Assembly: GCA_021776805.1 (NCBI GenBank)
Contig: JAJFFD010000171.1
Location: forward strand, 1 to 64,000
From: Planctomycetota bacterium
GTDB taxonomy: Bacteria; Planctomycetota; UBA1135; UBA2386
Direction of reading: 5' to 3'
Length of the DNA: 64,000 nt
Part shown: positions 7,546-41,771 of the stretch, piece after piece
Layout of the letters: every line of letters starts with the position of its first letter
Position numbering within the stretch: position 1 is the stretch's first letter
Made by a program: the position numbers and the translations under genes
Notes under the pieces: model-generated
What the model saw: only the letters and a program-made list of their open reading frames with translations
Told to the model about the DNA's origin: nothing
Database searches by the model: none

Positions 7546-9078
7546 CTAATCGGAGCCGAACTGGATTCCCTGGGCGAGAGGCAGCTCGCTGCCCCAATTG
7601 ACCGTGCTAGTTTGCCGGCGCATGTATGCCTTCCAGGAGTCCGAGCCCGATTCGCGGCCGCCGCCCGTGTCCTTCTCGCCGCCGAAGGCGCCACCGATCT
7701 CGGCGCCGGAGGTGCCGATGTTGACGTTGGCGATGCCGCAGTCCGAACCGACAGCGGAGACGAAGCGCTCCCCATGGCGGATGTTCATGGTGAAGACGGC
7801 CGAGCTCAGTCCCTGGGGCACGTCGTTCTGGACCTGGATTGCCTGCTCGATGTCGTCGATAGGCATGATGTAGAGAATGGGTGCGAAGGTCTCCTCCTTC
7901 ACCAGCTTCATCTCCGGATGGGCGCGGATGATGGTGGGCTGAACGAAGTTGCCTGCCGAGAGTTCGCCTCCCGGATCGTGCTTGCCGCCGCCGCAGAGGA
8001 TCTCGCCACCTTCTTCCTTGGCAGTCGCCAAGGCCTGCATCATGCCCTGCACCGCATCCTGGTCGATGAGGGGTCCCATGAGGGTGCCCTCTGCCAACGG
8101 ATCGCCGATGACCACCGACTTGTAGGCTGAGACCAGGCGGTTCTGCAGTTCGTCGATGATGCCGCGTTGGGCGAGGACCCGGCGCGTGCTGGTGCAGCGT
8201 TGACCGGCGGTGCCGACGGCGCCGAAGACGATGGCGCGCACGGCCATGTCCAGGTCGGCGTCATCGAGGACCGTGATGGCCGAGTTGCCGCCGAGTTCGA
8301 GGAGGCTGCGACCGAGGCGCTTGCCGACCTTCTCGGCGACGATGCGCCCCATGCGCACGGAACCCGTGGCGCTGATCAGGGGAAGGCGCTTGTCCTCGAC
8401 CATGGCATTCCCCACCTCGCTCACGTCGCCGATGATGAGTCCAACGAGGGGGGCGAAGCCGTCCTCGGCGAGCACATCCGCAGCGACCTTGGTCATGGCG
8501 ATGGCGGTGAGGGGAGTCTTCTCCGAGGGTTTCCAGATCTGGGCGTTGCCGCAGACCAGGGAGAGCATGGCGTTCCAGGCCCAGACCGCGGCGGGGAAGT
8601 TGAAGGCGGTGATCACGCCGATGGTTCCCAGGGGGTGCCAGATCTCGCGCATGCTGTGCATGGGGCGTTCGGACTTGATGTCCAAGCCGTAGAGCTGGCG
8701 TGAGAGGCCGACCGCGAAGTCGGCGATGTCGATGCACTCCTGAACTTCGCCCAGACCCTCTTGCAGGATCTTGCCGCTCTCGAGGCTGACGAGCTTGCCG
8801 AGGGCGTCCTTCTTTTCGCGCATGGCCAGGCCGATGCGACGGACATACTCGCCACGCTGTGGGGCGGGCAGGGCGCGCCAGCGTGAGAAGGCCTCCTGGG
8901 CGGCGGCGACCACCCGTTCATAGTCCGCCCGGCTGCCATAGCGTAGGGAGGCGATGGTCTTGCCGTTGGCGGGGGCGATGGAATGGCACTCCTCGCCGGT
9001 GGTTTGCAGCCAGCTGCCGTCGAAGGCACCTGGGTTCTTGGCTTCGATGCCCAGTTCCTTGAGGAAGTCGAGATTCAT
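7546..9078 (-). CDS. Aldehyde dehydrogenase, ALDH7 (antiquitin / alpha-aminoadipic semialdehyde dehydrogenase-like)
   Basis: 510 residues, the usual length for ALDH7. NAD-binding and catalytic blocks are complete: ITAFNFPAAVWAWNA, IWKPSEKTPLTAI, ATGSVRMGR, the general base E261 in LELGGNSA, and the nucleophile C295 in GTAGQRCTSTRR. The C-terminal block IGTSGAEIGGAFGGEKDTGG, followed by SWKAYMRRQT, separates ALDH7 from other ALDHs. The family oxidises alpha-aminoadipate semialdehyde in lysine breakdown and protects against reactive aldehydes. It is the first gene of a minus-strand pair with homoserine kinase. Confidence 0.93.
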   Translation of the reverse strand: MNLDFLKELGIEAKNPGAFDGSWLQTTGEECHSIAPANGKTIASLRYGSRADYERVVAAAQEAFSRWRALPAPQRGEYVRRIGLAMREKKDALGKLVSLESGKILQEGLGEVQECIDIADFAVGLSRQLYGLDIKSERPMHSMREIWHPLGTIGVITAFNFPAAVWAWNAMLSLVCGNAQIWKPSEKTPLTAIAMTKVAADVLAEDGFAPLVGLIIGDVSEVGNAMVEDKRLPLISATGSVRMGRIVAEKVGKRLGRSLLELGGNSAITVLDDADLDMAVRAIVFGAVGTAGQRCTSTRRVLAQRGIIDELQNRLVSAYKSVVIGDPLAEGTLMGPLIDQDAVQGMMQALATAKEEGGEILCGGGKHDPGGELSAGNFVQPTIIRAHPEMKLVKEETFAPILYIMPIDDIEQAIQVQNDVPQGLSSAVFTMNIRHGERFVSAVGSDCGIANVNIGTSGAEIGGAFGGEKDTGGGRESGSDSWKAYMRRQTSTVNWGSELPLAQGIQFGSD

Positions 9079-9125
9079 TGCTTGCTCCTGGGGTCCCTGC
9101 GCATCGACCCGCTTACTTGCTGAGC

Positions 9126-9141
9126 TACAATCCTGGGCGTG
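9126..9141 (+). promoter_or_regulatory. -10 element abutting a GTG start (rhodanese gene)
   Basis: TACAAT at 9126-9131 is followed after 7 bases by GTG 9139. A -35-like TCGACC at 9104-9109 has 16-base spacing. No Shine-Dalgarno is present, which again suggests a leaderless transcript. Confidence 0.4.
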
Positions 9142-9843
9142 ATCCTCGATCCTCGCAACAACCTTTCTCGGCTCCTGCTCTGGACTTCACCGAGCCTTCT
9201 CCTGCTGTCCTGCTGTGGAGTGGAGGGTTCCGAGGTTCTGCCCAGGTCTCCTGCCCCCGCCGACCAATTCCTGGTCGATCTGCGGGCGCCGGAGGACTTC
9301 GCCCGGGGGCACCGATCGGGGGCGATCAATCTGCAGTGGGGCTATGGGCAATTCGAGCTGCGGGCGAAGAATCTCTTCCCTGCTGGTTCGAGCTTGCAGC
9401 TGATCGGTGAGGATGAAGCGCAGTGTCGAGCCGCTGTCGAATTCGCTCAGGCGGAGGGCTTCTTGGGCCTGAGCAGTGAGGTTTTCACGGCGGATCAGCC
9501 TCTGCAGGTGCAGGCGACCATGGGGGCCAGGGAGCTATCAGAGGAACTTGCCGGCAGAGGCATCACGGTCCTGGATGCCCGCACTGCGGAGGAGTATGAG
9601 GCGGGCCACATTCCGGGGGCGCTCTTCGTCTACCCGGACGACATCCCCGAGACCAGCAAGGCCCTGCGCAGGGAACGCCGGCTGGCAGTCATCTGCACCG
9701 CCGGTTGGCGTTCATCCCTGGTGAGCAGCTGGCTCGAGCGCGAAGGCTTCGAGCATGTGGTCAATGTGATTGGCGGGATGCGCGAATGGCAGGAGCTCGG
9801 CCTGCCATTGGAAGCTGGCAGTCAGCAGAAGAGCTTCCGCTAG
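9139..9843 (+). CDS. Rhodanese-domain lipoprotein (two domains, one active-site Cys)
   Basis: 234 residues from GTG 9139. The N-terminus has a hydrophobic segment ending in a lipobox-like LLLSCC (about residues 21-26). Residues about 40-110 resemble a shortened rhodanese domain (FLVDLRAPEDFARGHRSGAI) without an active-site Cys. Residues about 130-225 are a full rhodanese domain: VLDARTAEEYEAGHIPGA, then the loop CTAGWRSS with C186, and VNVIGGMREWQELGLP. Rhodaneses carry persulfide sulfur on this Cys. A lipoprotein location would place it in the periplasm, which suits sulfide or cyanide handling. The stop overlaps the convergent DUF2304 gene by 4 bases. Confidence 0.85.
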   Translation: MILDPRNNLSRLLLWTSPSLLLLSCCGVEGSEVLPRSPAPADQFLVDLRAPEDFARGHRSGAINLQWGYGQFELRAKNLFPAGSSLQLIGEDEAQCRAAVEFAQAEGFLGLSSEVFTADQPLQVQATMGARELSEELAGRGITVLDARTAEEYEAGHIPGALFVYPDDIPETSKALRRERRLAVICTAGWRSSLVSSWLEREGFEHVVNVIGGMREWQELGLPLEAGSQQKSFR

Positions 9844-10277
9844 CCGATCGCTTCTTCTTCGCTGGCGCGCTTGGGCTTGGTGACCTGTGGGCTCGGATGA
9901 AGCTCATGGATCCTCTGGCCGGCTTGGTCACGATGGGCCTTCTCCATGTTCTGGAGGTCCTTCTCGAGAAGGGCCATCTTCTGGCTGAGCGCCTTGACTC
10001 GGAAGGTCAGCTTGGAGAGATGCACAGAGAACTGCAGGGCGACCAGCATCAGAAAGACGAGGGCGCCAAAGAAAAGGGCGTTGGTGGCCAGGACGGCGCC
10101 GACCGCCTGCTGGAAGAGGTTCAGGAGCCGCGGTTCCAGGGCGAGTGCCATGAGCAGGACAGCTGTGAGTGTCCAGATGACCGAGTACTCCTCGCGCAGT
10201 TTTCGCTTTCGCACCAGCTCGATCACGACGATCAGCATGGCAGCAGCGATAACGATCGCAGCGATCCTGTGCTGCAT
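9840..10277 (-). CDS. DUF2304 membrane protein, partner of the upstream glycosyltransferase
   Basis: 145 residues from ATG 10277. Three predicted membrane segments are at about 5-24, 37-54 and 66-88, with the DUF2304 signature LVRKRKLREEYSVIWTLTAV between the first two. A coiled-coil-prone C-terminus follows (KALSQKMALLEKDLQNMEKA). The family is nearly always found next to a small GT2 enzyme, as here, and is thought to work with it in transfer of a lipid-linked sugar. I chose ATG 10277 because it matches the family start; an earlier TTG at 10352, directly after the glycosyltransferase stop, adds 25 non-family residues. Confidence 0.85.
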   Translation of the reverse strand: MQHRIAAIVIAAAMLIVVIELVRKRKLREEYSVIWTLTAVLLMALALEPRLLNLFQQAVGAVLATNALFFGALVFLMLVALQFSVHLSKLTFRVKALSQKMALLEKDLQNMEKAHRDQAGQRIHELHPSPQVTKPKRASEEEAIG

Positions 10278-10352
10278 GGGCAGTTCTTCGAGGAGCTGTG
10301 GACCGCTCGAGGTCTCTTGCAGAAGGGGCAGCATAGAGATCATTGCGGCCAA

Positions 10353-11099
10353 CTAGCTGGTCTTCGCGAGGCTCACCTTGCGGCCAGCTCGGAATGGAGA
10401 TCGACGACGGATGGGCAGTAAGGAGAGGGTGAGGAACATCTTGTATGCGTAGTACGCCGCGCGCCCGCTGCGATGCATGCTCGTCCCACCGGAACGTTCA
10501 TGCATGCGTACCGGGATCTCGACGATCTGTATCCCGGCACGTGCCAAGGTGATCAGGACGTCCGCGTCTGGATAATCTTCGGGGAAGTTGTCATGGACGA
10601 GTTCATCCAAGGCCTTCCCCGACATGGCTTGGAAGCCGGAGGTTGCGTCGGTGATTTGCACGCCGGTCCACTTGGTGACGATCCAAGAAAATATGCGCGT
10701 GCCGAGTCGCCTCGCGAAGGTTGTTTGCGGGGCATTGTTCTGCCGATAACGAGAGCCCACGACCAAATCGGCGCCGCTGTCCAGTGCACTCAGCAGATCC
10801 GGAAGGGAGGCCGAGTCATGTTGGCCATCTGCATCCATCTGCACGATGCGCTCATAGCGTCGGCGGCGTGCATAGAGGTAGCCAGTCTGCAGGGCGGCCC
10901 CATAGCCTAGATTGAAGCTATGTTGCACCACCTCTGCGCCGAAGCGGCGGGCAACCTGGGCTGTCCCGTCACGGCTGCCGTCATCGATCACGAGCAAGTC
11001 CGCGGCGGGTATTTCACGTTGGATTCTCATGAGTACCGGCCCGATGCGACTCTCCTCGTTGTACGCAGGGATCAGTATGAGAATTCGTCCTGGTTGCAG
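10353..11099 (-). CDS. Family 2 glycosyltransferase (dolichyl-phosphate-mannose-synthase-like), apparent CTG start
   Basis: 248 residues if started at CTG 11099. The first ATG in frame (11030) would delete the first beta strand and the nucleotide-binding block LILIPAYNEESRIG, which is present and conserved upstream. The frame stays open to 11234 but has no ATG, GTG or TTG there. A perfect AGGAGG lies 5 bases before CTG 11099. Other motifs are VIDDGSRDGTAQVARRF, NLGYGAALQTGY, the metal-binding DxD in VQMDADGQHD, and ATSGFQAMSGKAL. There is no C-terminal membrane segment; the DUF2304 gene supplies one. The likely role is making a polyprenyl-phosphate sugar. Confidence 0.88.
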   Translation of the reverse strand: MQPGRILILIPAYNEESRIGPVLMRIQREIPAADLLVIDDGSRDGTAQVARRFGAEVVQHSFNLGYGAALQTGYLYARRRRYERIVQMDADGQHDSASLPDLLSALDSGADLVVGSRYRQNNAPQTTFARRLGTRIFSWIVTKWTGVQITDATSGFQAMSGKALDELVHDNFPEDYPDADVLITLARAGIQIVEIPVRMHERSGGTSMHRSGRAAYYAYKMFLTLSLLPIRRRSPFRAGRKVSLAKTS

Positions 11100-38313: not shown

Positions 38314-38733
38314 TCAGGAGGGCTTTCCGGTGCTGGGCGCTCTAACCCTCAGTGGCCGCCTGGGATCCTCTTCCTCGCCGACTGCGTGCCCGTGGCAGAC
38401 CTTGCTCTCGCCTTCCTGCCAGCAGAAGACCAGAGGTCCTGGTTGGGTATGGCCGGGGATGTGGATAGTCAGGGGAAAAGTCCGGAGGATGTGCAGTCCC
38501 AAGGCCTCCAACTCCTTTCTCGAGTGCTTCATCCCTATCTCGAGTTCGAAGATACGGGCGTCTGTCTCGGCGATGGCGGCGTCGAGGCCTTCCTGGGTGC
38601 GGGCTTCCTCGAGCTCGGATCGCATGCGGCGCATCCGTCGTTTCTCATCGCGTCGATCGGTGATTTCTTGGGCGATGGAGGAAACCAGAGGCAGGAGGCG
38701 GTTGGCTTCGTCCAGTGTGTATCTGATATCCAT
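38314..38733 (-). CDS. DUF2203 family protein
   Basis: 139 residues from ATG 38733, with AGGTGA about 8 bases upstream (ATG 38751 and 38787 are further choices). The DUF2203 pattern is present: YTLDEANRLLPLVSSIAQEI, a coiled-coil-like RRMRRMRSELEEARTQEGLD, and GPLVFCWQEGESKVCHGHA. The family is cytosolic and uncharacterised. It lies 77 bases upstream of the Dabb gene on the same strand. Confidence 0.82.
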   Translation of the reverse strand: MDIRYTLDEANRLLPLVSSIAQEITDRRDEKRRMRRMRSELEEARTQEGLDAAIAETDARIFELEIGMKHSRKELEALGLHILRTFPLTIHIPGHTQPGPLVFCWQEGESKVCHGHAVGEEEDPRRPLRVRAPSTGKPS

Positions 38734-38810
38734 TGCGATCTTCACCTGCATGCCTTTTGCGGCTGGTTGTGTAGCCAAGAGACCCATGCCACCGCATTCA
38801 TATGATCTAG

Positions 38811-39032: not shown

Positions 39033-40793
39033 ATGGAAATGCCCCAAATCCACGACAGGTTCCAGCTCTTGGAGCAACTGGAGGACAGTGAAGCTCAGCT
39101 TCTGTTCCGTGCCACGGACAAGCTCTTGGAGCGCGAAGTTCTCTTGAAGCTTCCAAGCAAGTCCATGGCGCAGCAGATTGGAGCGGCCGCGGATCAGAAG
39201 CGCAGCCTGCGAGAAGCCCGCATGCTGGCGAAGGTCAAGCACGCCGGGATCGCCCAACTCCTGGACATCATCGAGCTGCCGAGGTCGCAGGATCTGGTGG
39301 ACAGCATCGGAATTCCTGGCGGCCCCATGCTCGTGCTCGAGGCTGTGGCTGGGGAGAGTCTCGCCGAGCGTCTGGCACGAGGCCGCATGTCTGCAGATGA
39401 ACTCAGAAGCTTGGCCAGAGAACTCTGTGATTCACTCTCCGCCGTCCATCAGGTGGGGGTCGTGCACCGCGGACTTTCCTGTGAATCGGTGGTCATCCGT
39501 CCCGATGGGAGCTCCTGCTTGGGCGGCTTCTCCTTCGCAAAGCAGACCAGCATGGTGGGGACTTCGTCGATCTGCTATCGACCCAAGGCCGATGGTGGGG
39601 GACAGGCGACTGCTCTGCCTGCGTACCCTGCGCCCGAACAACTCAGTGGTCAGCCGGCGGATGCCCGCTCGGACGTGTATGGTCTCGGCTCTCTCATGTT
39701 CCGCTGTCTTACCGGAGAGGATCCCAGCGATGGTCAGGGCATGGATGATCTCGCAGCGATCCTCCGCAGCGAGTGTCCTGAGGTGCCCCAAGGCCTCGTA
39801 GAGATCATCCGCAAGTCACTCTCGCGGAGCCCTATGGGCAGGTATCCGACAGCTCGCGACATGGGTGAAGCATTGGATGCGGACCTGACCCCCTCGTCTG
39901 CTACTGGCCGAGGCCGCATGCCAATTCTGGTGGGTTTGATGACTGCCGCTGCCGCGCTCACGCTGAGCCTCGTTTTCTGGATGGGGGAGGAAGGCCCGGG
40001 GACGCGTGGTCGTCCCAAGCCGGAAGCTGCCCCTGGCCAAGGTTCAGGGCCAGTCTATGCCAGCAGCTATGGCAAGACTCATGCCCTCCTGATCGGCATT
40101 GAGCAGTCCTACGATGGACGCGAGTGGGCCAAGCTCAACAACACCTTGCTCGATGTCCAGACTGTCAGGGACACTTTGGTAGACGACTTGGGATGGTCGG
40201 CTGACTCAGTGACCCTTCTCACCGAGGAAGAGGCTGATGAAGGCGGTATCCGCGATGCCCTCGACAACATCATCACGACGGCCGGACGCGACGACCGCGT
40301 CCTGGTTTATTTCGCGGGGCACGGCAAGCCGAATGAATACAACAAGGACGATGCTTGGATCGTGCCTTCCGGCGCTACGGAGGCCCGCGAGTACATCAAT
40401 ATGAATGATCTGCGGACCTTCTTGGGTTCCTGCAAGGCGAAGCACATTCTCCTTACCCTCGATTGCTGTTTCGCTGGCAGAGTCATCGACGACTCCGAGA
40501 TGAGCCGTGGAGCTATGGGCCTCACTGCCAGGGCGCATCTCATCCTTACATCCGTTGGTGGTGACAAGGTGGCTCTCGATGGTGAGAAGGGCAAGATGTC
40601 CCCCTTCGCTGCTGCGTTCACCAGAGCTCTGCGAGAGGAGTCCAAGGACGAGAGCGGCGGATTCCTGAATCTCGACGCTCAATTCGTCCTCGCGAAGATG
40701 CGCCTGGATCTCGAGCGGAGGAAGGTGGATCAGAACCCGCTCTTGAACAGTTCTGGCGAAGGCCGCTTTCTCTTCTCCATGGAGAGCAACTGA
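39033..40793 (+). CDS. Pseudokinase-TM-caspase (peptidase C14) fusion
   Basis: 586 residues. Residues about 8-282 are a Ser/Thr-kinase fold. The VAIK Lys (K39) and alpha-C Glu (E61) are kept, and so is the APE (200-202). The catalytic machinery is gone: the Gly-rich loop reads LEDSEAQL, HRD is HRG (145-147), the catalytic-loop Asn is S152, and DFG is GFS (165-167). A single membrane segment at about 296-317 follows, then a linker rich in Pro and Gly. Residues about 345-583 are a caspase/metacaspase fold with the dyad H430 (VYFAGHGKP) and C479 (LDCCFAGR). The kinase half probably senses or binds while the peptidase half acts. The topology suggests the peptidase is outside the cytoplasm. A folded element follows the stop by 42 bases. 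Confidence 0.88.
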   Translation: MEMPQIHDRFQLLEQLEDSEAQLLFRATDKLLEREVLLKLPSKSMAQQIGAAADQKRSLREARMLAKVKHAGIAQLLDIIELPRSQDLVDSIGIPGGPMLVLEAVAGESLAERLARGRMSADELRSLARELCDSLSAVHQVGVVHRGLSCESVVIRPDGSSCLGGFSFAKQTSMVGTSSICYRPKADGGGQATALPAYPAPEQLSGQPADARSDVYGLGSLMFRCLTGEDPSDGQGMDDLAAILRSECPEVPQGLVEIIRKSLSRSPMGRYPTARDMGEALDADLTPSSATGRGRMPILVGLMTAAAALTLSLVFWMGEEGPGTRGRPKPEAAPGQGSGPVYASSYGKTHALLIGIEQSYDGREWAKLNNTLLDVQTVRDTLVDDLGWSADSVTLLTEEEADEGGIRDALDNIITTAGRDDRVLVYFAGHGKPNEYNKDDAWIVPSGATEAREYINMNDLRTFLGSCKAKHILLTLDCCFAGRVIDDSEMSRGAMGLTARAHLILTSVGGDKVALDGEKGKMSPFAAAFTRALREESKDESGGFLNLDAQFVLAKMRLDLERRKVDQNPLLNSSGEGRFLFSMESN

Positions 40794-40835
40794 TATTGCT
40801 CGTCTGCGCAAGCGAGGACCTGCTGAGAGAAAGTT

Positions 40836-41016
40836 GGTAGGCGGCTTCACCCCCCTTGGATCCTGAACCACCAGTCAGGGAGGCTGTGCCGTGTTGAGGT
40901 CGGTGGTCCGAATCACCTGCAGGATCCCAAGTCCTCGCTCACCAAATGGGACACCTACAGGTTGGGCTACAGCTTTCACGCTGGAGCCTCATGAGCGCCC
41001 GTGGAAGCCGCCTACC
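40836..41016. ncRNA. Strongly folded 181-base element, candidate structured RNA
   Basis: A perfect 13-base closing stem (40836-40848 with 41004-41016) encloses two arms. Arm 1 is 40855-40865 with 40920-40931 (one bulge), continued by 40867-40872 with 40902-40907. Arm 2 is 40936-40941 with 40992-40997, enclosing GGCTACAGC at 40965-40973 paired with GCTGGAGCC (40980-40988). AGCGAGGAC at 40811-40819 can pair perfectly with 40931-40939, which would disturb the junction, so alternative folds are possible. Strand is unknown. It lies 3' of the caspase gene and 3' of the convergent methyltransferase-like gene. 6S RNA architecture is a weak possibility; a MITE-like element is another. Confidence 0.5.
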
Positions 41017-41066: not shown

Positions 41067-41771
41067 TTAGCGCATGCCCTTCACGCGAGTGCGTCGGCAA
41101 ACGAGCTCGATTGCGCCAGTGGTGCCCAGGATCTCGGTGAGCGCCAAATGGAGGGATTCGACCATTTCGGATTCTGCTCCCAGGATGGAGACGCTGCCTT
41201 CAGCCAGTCGCCTTGGGCTTTCGGAGCGCAGGAGGTGAGTGCCTAGGGAGGCCTCGATCCGTCGCAGTCCGGCCCGGCCAAGGCTCTCGACCAATTGACT
41301 CTCAGAGGGTCCGGACCAGCATGCGATCTGCTCTCGACTTCCGCCCGCCTGTAGCCAGGCCTTCGCCAAGGAGTTGCAGAAGTCCTCTGCAGGCAGGTCG
41401 ATCAGGAAGCGACCGCCGGGTCGGAGATTCTGGCTCGCCAGATCGCCCCAGCGCTCTCTCGGCCACTTGGGCATGCGCAAGGGGCATGCGAACAGGGCAT
41501 CGAAGAGGCCGAAGCTCTCGCCCTTTTGCGGCACGTGGGCCAGGACGCTCAGGGCGTGATGGTCGAGCTGGCGGATTACCTCCGCCTGACCCCGGTCCGC
41601 CTCAACTAACAGGACCCGACCCTCTTCCCCAACCAGATCAAGGAGGGCCTTGGTTTGTTCCAGGGATTGGCCCGTGATCTGCAGAACCCTCTCGCCTCGG
41701 GTCACTGCGGCGAGTTGTAGCGCTTCTCCAAGCCAAGGCTGAAGAGAGCTAGATGTGGAACTGAAGCTCAA
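41067..41771 (-). CDS. Class I SAM methyltransferase-like protein (degenerate)
   Basis: 234 residues. A Rossmann-like beginning (GERVLQITGQSLEQTKALLD, then EGRVLLVEADRGQAEVIRQL) and a later DLASQNLRPGGRFLIDLPAE fit a class I methyltransferase. The usual Gly-rich SAM loop DxGxGxG is altered to ITGQSLEQ, so activity is doubtful. The start ATG overlaps the stop of the MBL gene (ATGA), and RNase Z lies just before that: a compact minus-strand operon. Role unknown. Confidence 0.6.
   Translation of the reverse strand: MSFSSTSSSLQPWLGEALQLAAVTRGERVLQITGQSLEQTKALLDLVGEEGRVLLVEADRGQAEVIRQLDHHALSVLAHVPQKGESFGLFDALFACPLRMPKWPRERWGDLASQNLRPGGRFLIDLPAEDFCNSLAKAWLQAGGSREQIACWSGPSESQLVESLGRAGLRRIEASLGTHLLRSESPRRLAEGSVSILGAESEMVESLHLALTEILGTTGAIELVCRRTRVKGMR

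Follow-up and report, generated by a model that had tools for sequence, protein, structure and literature searches.

Can a kinase domain that has lost its catalytic machinery still have a function when it forms the front end of a membrane protein with a caspase-type protease? This question is raised by a gene in a 64,000-nucleotide stretch (the window; contig JAJFFD010000171.1, positions 1 to 64,000 of the forward strand, assembly GCA_021776805.1) of a 5.2-Mb draft genome of an uncultured planctomycete. Several close relatives in public records are 'Planctomycetota bacterium' MAGs. The ORF starts with ATG and encodes 586 amino acids. A sequence-only reading had described it as a pseudokinase joined by a membrane segment to an intact caspase domain, and this observation was confirmed. 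The features of the gene are as follows (TM, transmembrane):

39033..40793 (+), pseudokinase-TM-caspase gene, 586 aa
39048..39884 (+), pseudokinase domain, residues about 6-284, catalytic residues lost and fold residues kept
39465..39488 (+), degenerate catalytic loop HRGLSCES (residues 145-152; canonical HRDxKxxN)
39525..39542 (+), degenerate DFG motif GFSFAK (residues 165-170)
39564..39569 (+), conserved Ser-Ser (178-179) in an otherwise variable activation loop, candidate phospho-acceptor (function inferred)
39924..39980 (+), single predicted transmembrane helix, residues 298-316
40059..40781 (+), metacaspase/paracaspase-like peptidase (Peptidase_C14) domain, residues 343-583
40317..40325 (+), catalytic His motif G-H430-G
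40461..40469 (+), D477-C478-C479, acidic S1 residue and catalytic Cys

Both domains scored above the Pfam gathering cut-offs (Pkinase, 68.9 bits, E=6e-19 at 43-244; Peptidase_C14, 62.4 bits against a cut-off of 21.4, E=7e-17 at 349-574). The residues named in the sequence-only reading (K39, E61, HRG at 145-147, S152, GFS at 165-167, H430, and C479) and the missing Gly-loop were all found as claimed. The caspase half is predicted with high confidence to adopt the caspase fold (AF2 model, pLDDT 91.4, pTM 0.90), and Foldseek matched it to metacaspase 9, Yca1, MALT1, and the bacterial GSU0716. PF00656, the only model used with regard to a separate p10 domain (absent in orthocaspases), was matched over 2-227 of 233. 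The score for the EACC1-associated caspases (NF047832) was below the NCBIfam cut-off (89 against 140 bits). The kinase half matches PknB/PknA structurally (target-normalised TM 0.68-0.78), although the whole-protein model, based on 10 sequences, is only moderate (pLDDT 73.5) and its activation loop is of low confidence. The protein is not a PknB-type active kinase, since VAIK/HRD/DFG are not intact and NF033483 gave 96.8 bits against a cut-off of 450.

The likely neighbouring genes on either side (38314-38787 and 41067-41771) are on the minus strand, and the gene is therefore probably monocistronic here. The sequence-only reading had placed it between a leader region and a folded element, but neither is supported as a part. 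The downstream 'folded element' (40811-41016) is a pair of nested, overlapping inverted repeats (13 and 12 nt arms) that folds no better than shuffled sequences (z -1.5), is single-copy in the genome, and has no Rfam match above a gathering score, which speaks against a structured RNA or terminator.

To find out whether the degenerate motifs reflect a local error, as would have refuted the original observation, homologues were searched in relatives, in the order (154 genomes), and in an even sample of the phylum (392 genomes). This gave 20 full-length members including the window's own: 9 in the window's family, 7 in two other families of the order, and 4 in more distant families of the phylum. 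One of them (L011) is cut at a contig end but holds both caspase residues. Identity to the window protein is 31-37%. The DFG Asp, the DFG Gly, and the catalytic-loop Lys are absent in 20/20, whereas the HRD Asp is present in 2 of 20 (L136 and L156, which lack the DFG Asp) and the catalytic Asn in 3 of 20. No Gly-loop is visible in the 17 sequences displayed. In contrast, H145, R146, F166, E202 (APE), D214 (helix F), and R270 (helix I) are invariant, as are H430, D477, and C479 of the caspase. C478 is Ser in one homologue, so C479 is the likely nucleophile. Sequencing error or local decay was thus rejected, since 19 homologues share the losses. The retained K39 and E61, noted in the sequence-only reading, do not hold equally for the family: E61 is kept in 18/20, but K39 in only 14/20, being R, E, Q, or missing in the other six. 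A scan of a genome collection with the single protein found nothing. With the alignment, a partial scan found only members that appear to be those already seen and then generic kinases, so presence outside Planctomycetota is not excluded. The record CAMBXM010000035.1 (L043/L005) is titled Singulisphaera sp. but has the same gene position as genome G004, which is placed in the window's own family; the label may be wrong.

A tree of 64 kinase domains, built without the catalytic columns, placed all 21 family pseudokinases (the 20 members plus L013, described below) on one side of a branch with an SH-aLRT of 100. The two members retaining the HRD Asp lie inside in different places, from which it is inferred that this residue was lost more than once or regained. 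In the window's genome, every other kinase domain with a readable HRD motif keeps that Asp, and only one other (L280) has a replaced DFG Asp. The kinase half is more conserved than the caspase half (41% against 34% mean pairwise identity), and dN/dS, determined by a simple method in three close pairs, is below 1 for both halves. The caspase halves also group together, with modest support (69). Two caspase-FGE proteins (L199, L186) are nearest (95 for the larger group), but long branches make this placement uncertain. A second, divergent kinase-TM-caspase protein (L207; L236:4904-6859(-), G037:C67) also has HRG and GFG in place of HRD and DFG; it falls outside the family as a separate lineage on a long branch, was not merged into the family, and has another caspase gene (8778-10904) about 1.9 kb upstream on the same strand, so dead-kinase-caspase fusions may have arisen twice.

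All 20 members have one hydrophobic segment between the two domains. Acidic residues are more common on the caspase side in most members, and Lys/Arg on the kinase side at least equal those on the caspase side in most, although the Lys/Arg balance of the window member alone is neutral (2/2). Most other C14 proteins of these genomes begin with a signal-like hydrophobic segment. The only other C14 protein found in the window's genome (L222:2241-4463(-), contig C137) also has a signal-like N-terminus before the caspase and is probably exported. A cytoplasmic kinase half and an extracytoplasmic caspase half are therefore likely, but inferred from sequence alone.

The genomic context pointed to partner kinases that could not be seen from the window. 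One relative (L013, genome G014) is a kinase, active as judged by its residues, fused to a family pseudokinase without TM or caspase. Searches with this Ser/Thr kinase, here called X, showed that in G013 X lies on the same strand right after the pseudokinase-caspase gene, with a 719-bp interval between the two open frames. In G001, X is fused through a TM to another caspase. In G003, G024, G018, and G028, the X stop and a possible caspase start lie within about 12 bp, and in G004, G034, and G117, X is divergent from, and next to, a caspase gene; G014 has a further X-like kinase arranged the same way. The caspase fused to, or start-to-stop with, X (L224:5063-8815(+) and L225-L228) has a long C-terminal region, indicating an apparently unnamed kinase-caspase operon in this order. 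All catalytic residues are present in the seven aligned copies of X. In a profile search of the 154 genomes, X was found in 15 genomes and pseudokinase-caspase in 15, with 10 shared (X in 10 of 15 genomes with pseudokinase-caspase against 5 of 139 without; Fisher P=5e-9, by genus P=2e-5). The score cut was placed by eye at a gap (X at 334 bits or more, generic kinases from 304; G098 at 321 is ambiguous), and five of the 15 pseudokinase-caspase genomes, some of them incomplete, show no X. The tests ignore relatedness, but in two genera (g5, g7) one genome has both genes and its congeners, some incomplete, show neither. Six of the seven profile sequences come from genomes with pseudokinase-caspase; they were chosen by similarity to the kinase of L013, not by that presence.

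A second potential partner is a kinase-FGE-sulfatase protein ('Y') with an intact HRD motif, encoded by the gene facing the 3' end of pseudokinase-caspase in G028, G135, and G375, which belong to three different families (the last outside the order). The three proteins are alike over about 790 residues (28-40% identity). Since FGE matches number only 8, 24, and 13 in these genomes, three such neighbours are unlikely by chance. FGE-caspase fusions are known (PMC3501461). A conserved operon around the gene in general was not seen; between genera only the X and kinase-FGE neighbours stood out, and several multi-locus neighbour groups were shadow ORFs. In the window's own genome the gene stands alone, and X (contig C25, positions 1136-2932) and the second caspase (C137) lie on other contigs.

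The activation loop is variable except for an [ST]S pair at 178-179 ([ST] at 178 in 19/20, S at 179 in 19/20; column entropy 1.2 and 0.3 bits against 2-3.6 at most neighbouring positions). Human MLKL, a pseudokinase fused to an executioner, is switched by RIPK3 phosphorylation of T357/S358 in its activation loop (PMC10603135). The resemblance is functional and convergent at most: there is no homology beyond the kinase fold, the N-terminal four-helix region of MLKL is absent, the effector is a caspase joined through a membrane segment, and phosphorylation here is a prediction.

The explanation favoured here, held with even confidence, is a single-pass membrane protease receptor. The analysis itself demonstrates the anatomy, the loss of phosphotransfer residues with retention of structural residues (including two regulatory-spine positions) and of the caspase dyad throughout the family, and the recurrent association with genes for two kinds of kinases, X and Y. 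The absence of phosphotransfer, the protease activity, the topology, binding, phosphorylation, oligomerisation, substrate, and outcome are inferred. In this view, the pseudokinase sits in the cytoplasm as a docking and switch module for an active kinase. Binding, and probably phosphorylation at S178/S179, would change its conformation or self-association and bring the caspase domains together or release them on the other side of the membrane, where they would cut substrates after Arg/Lys, as the invariant acidic D477 suggests. The outcome might be envelope remodelling, regulated lysis, or defence. However, direct adjacency of X to this family is seen once and the fusion once, and the more common neighbour of X is a different caspase type. 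The C-terminus of X is probably also outside the membrane, so X could act on caspases there. The interpretation of the sequence-only reading, an allosteric sensor controlling proteolysis with a peptidase possibly outside the cytoplasm, is partly supported. Its own test, whether HRG/GFS is conserved in homologues, came out in its favour. Control without catalysis fits the conserved fold residues, and the extracytoplasmic placement fits the charge bias and the exported paralogues, but the genomic context makes the pseudokinase look like a receiver for an active Ser/Thr kinase rather than a stand-alone sensor.

Among the alternatives, a pure oligomerisation scaffold, in which self-association of the kinase fold keeps caspases dimeric or clustered without an upstream kinase, is the main rival, although less likely. 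Fold residues and R-spine positions are invariant while the nucleotide site drifts, K39 included, and the membrane pseudokinase EssB/YukC scaffolds a complex and stabilises its dimer (PMC12599244). The X and Y associations, the X-pseudokinase fusion, and the conserved [ST]S pair speak against it. A sensor that binds a nucleotide or small ligand in its altered pocket by itself is unlikely: K39 and E61 are present in the window protein, and some bacterial pseudokinases with altered motifs are modelled to bind ATP (PMC12599244), but with the Gly-loop, DFG Asp, and catalytic-loop Lys absent and the pocket Lys not conserved, no common nucleotide site is maintained, and ATP binding is unlikely to be the family's function.

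Changed chemistry (AMPylation or glutamylation, as in SelO or SidJ) has precedents among pseudokinases (PMC12599244) and might be indicated by the near-invariant K170 and the invariant H145-R146. It is very unlikely, because no conserved acidic metal ligand remains at the DFG or HRD positions (0/20 and 2/20). Decay of a kinase-caspase fusion, suggested by the lost catalytic residues and the existence of an active kinase-TM-caspase fusion (L193/L224), is already strongly contradicted by the higher conservation of the pseudokinase half, dN/dS below 1, the single origin, and the long retention across the phylum. The most far-reaching reading, a two-protein relay acting inside-out as a convergent counterpart of RIPK3-MLKL, in which an active kinase phosphorylates the activation loop of a pseudokinase fused across the membrane to a caspase as executioner, is not excluded but remains tentative and rather unlikely.

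With prokaryotic caspase homologues (orthocaspases, bacterial metacaspases) the protein shares the C14 domain, the His-Cys dyad, the Asp two residues before the Cys, and the predicted metacaspase/MALT1-like fold; it differs in its TM-linked pseudokinase, a partner of which no mention was found in the parts consulted of two surveys (PMC3501461, PMC6426788). The bacterial Ser/Thr pseudokinase families (ActPs1-3, GLW, CP1, DYD, DLHK; EssB/YukC) share a kinase fold with degraded motifs, often followed by a TM, but the motif pattern here (HR[GA], [GA]F[TSVH]FAK), the occurrence in Planctomycetota, and the caspase output are different. The DYD and GLW features (DYD in place of DFG; a hydrophobic replacement of the beta3 Lys; PMC12599244) are not present: DFG is replaced by [GAS]F followed by S, T, H, V, D, or R, and the beta3 position holds Lys, Arg, Glu, or Gln, with one gap. 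Active PknB-type membrane kinases and the kinase X-TM-caspase fusion (L193/L224) have the same kinase-TM-extracytoplasmic layout, and L193 even has a caspase, but its kinase has intact HRD/DFG and groups with active kinases, and its caspase belongs to another C14 clade. The metacaspase-FGE-sulfatase proteins contain no kinase or TM-linked pseudokinase in the same chain.

No description of a pseudokinase-caspase family was found in the literature searched, which did not include subscription papers and preprints. The main text of the bacterial pseudokinase review names neither caspases nor Planctomycetes (PMC12599244), and the one planctomycete kinase survey found classed as functional only domains that keep the catalytic K/D/D residues and analysed architectures in those (PMC11032199), which would pass this family over. 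Inactive kinase domains and caspases both occur in conflict systems of multicellular bacteria (PMC7159879), which makes a defence or cell-death role conceivable, whereas the best PADLOC hits, kinases of PD-T4-6 and its caspase model, match generic domains and do not show a defence role. Bacterial pseudokinases and bacterial caspases are both numerous and mostly without known function. Here, the two occur in one chain, with candidate upstream kinases, a candidate switch site, and a likely catalytic Cys defined at C479, so that a pathway from kinase to dead kinase to protease becomes directly testable. In this group of uncultured planctomycetes, a protease usually linked with cell death may be switched by a dead kinase.
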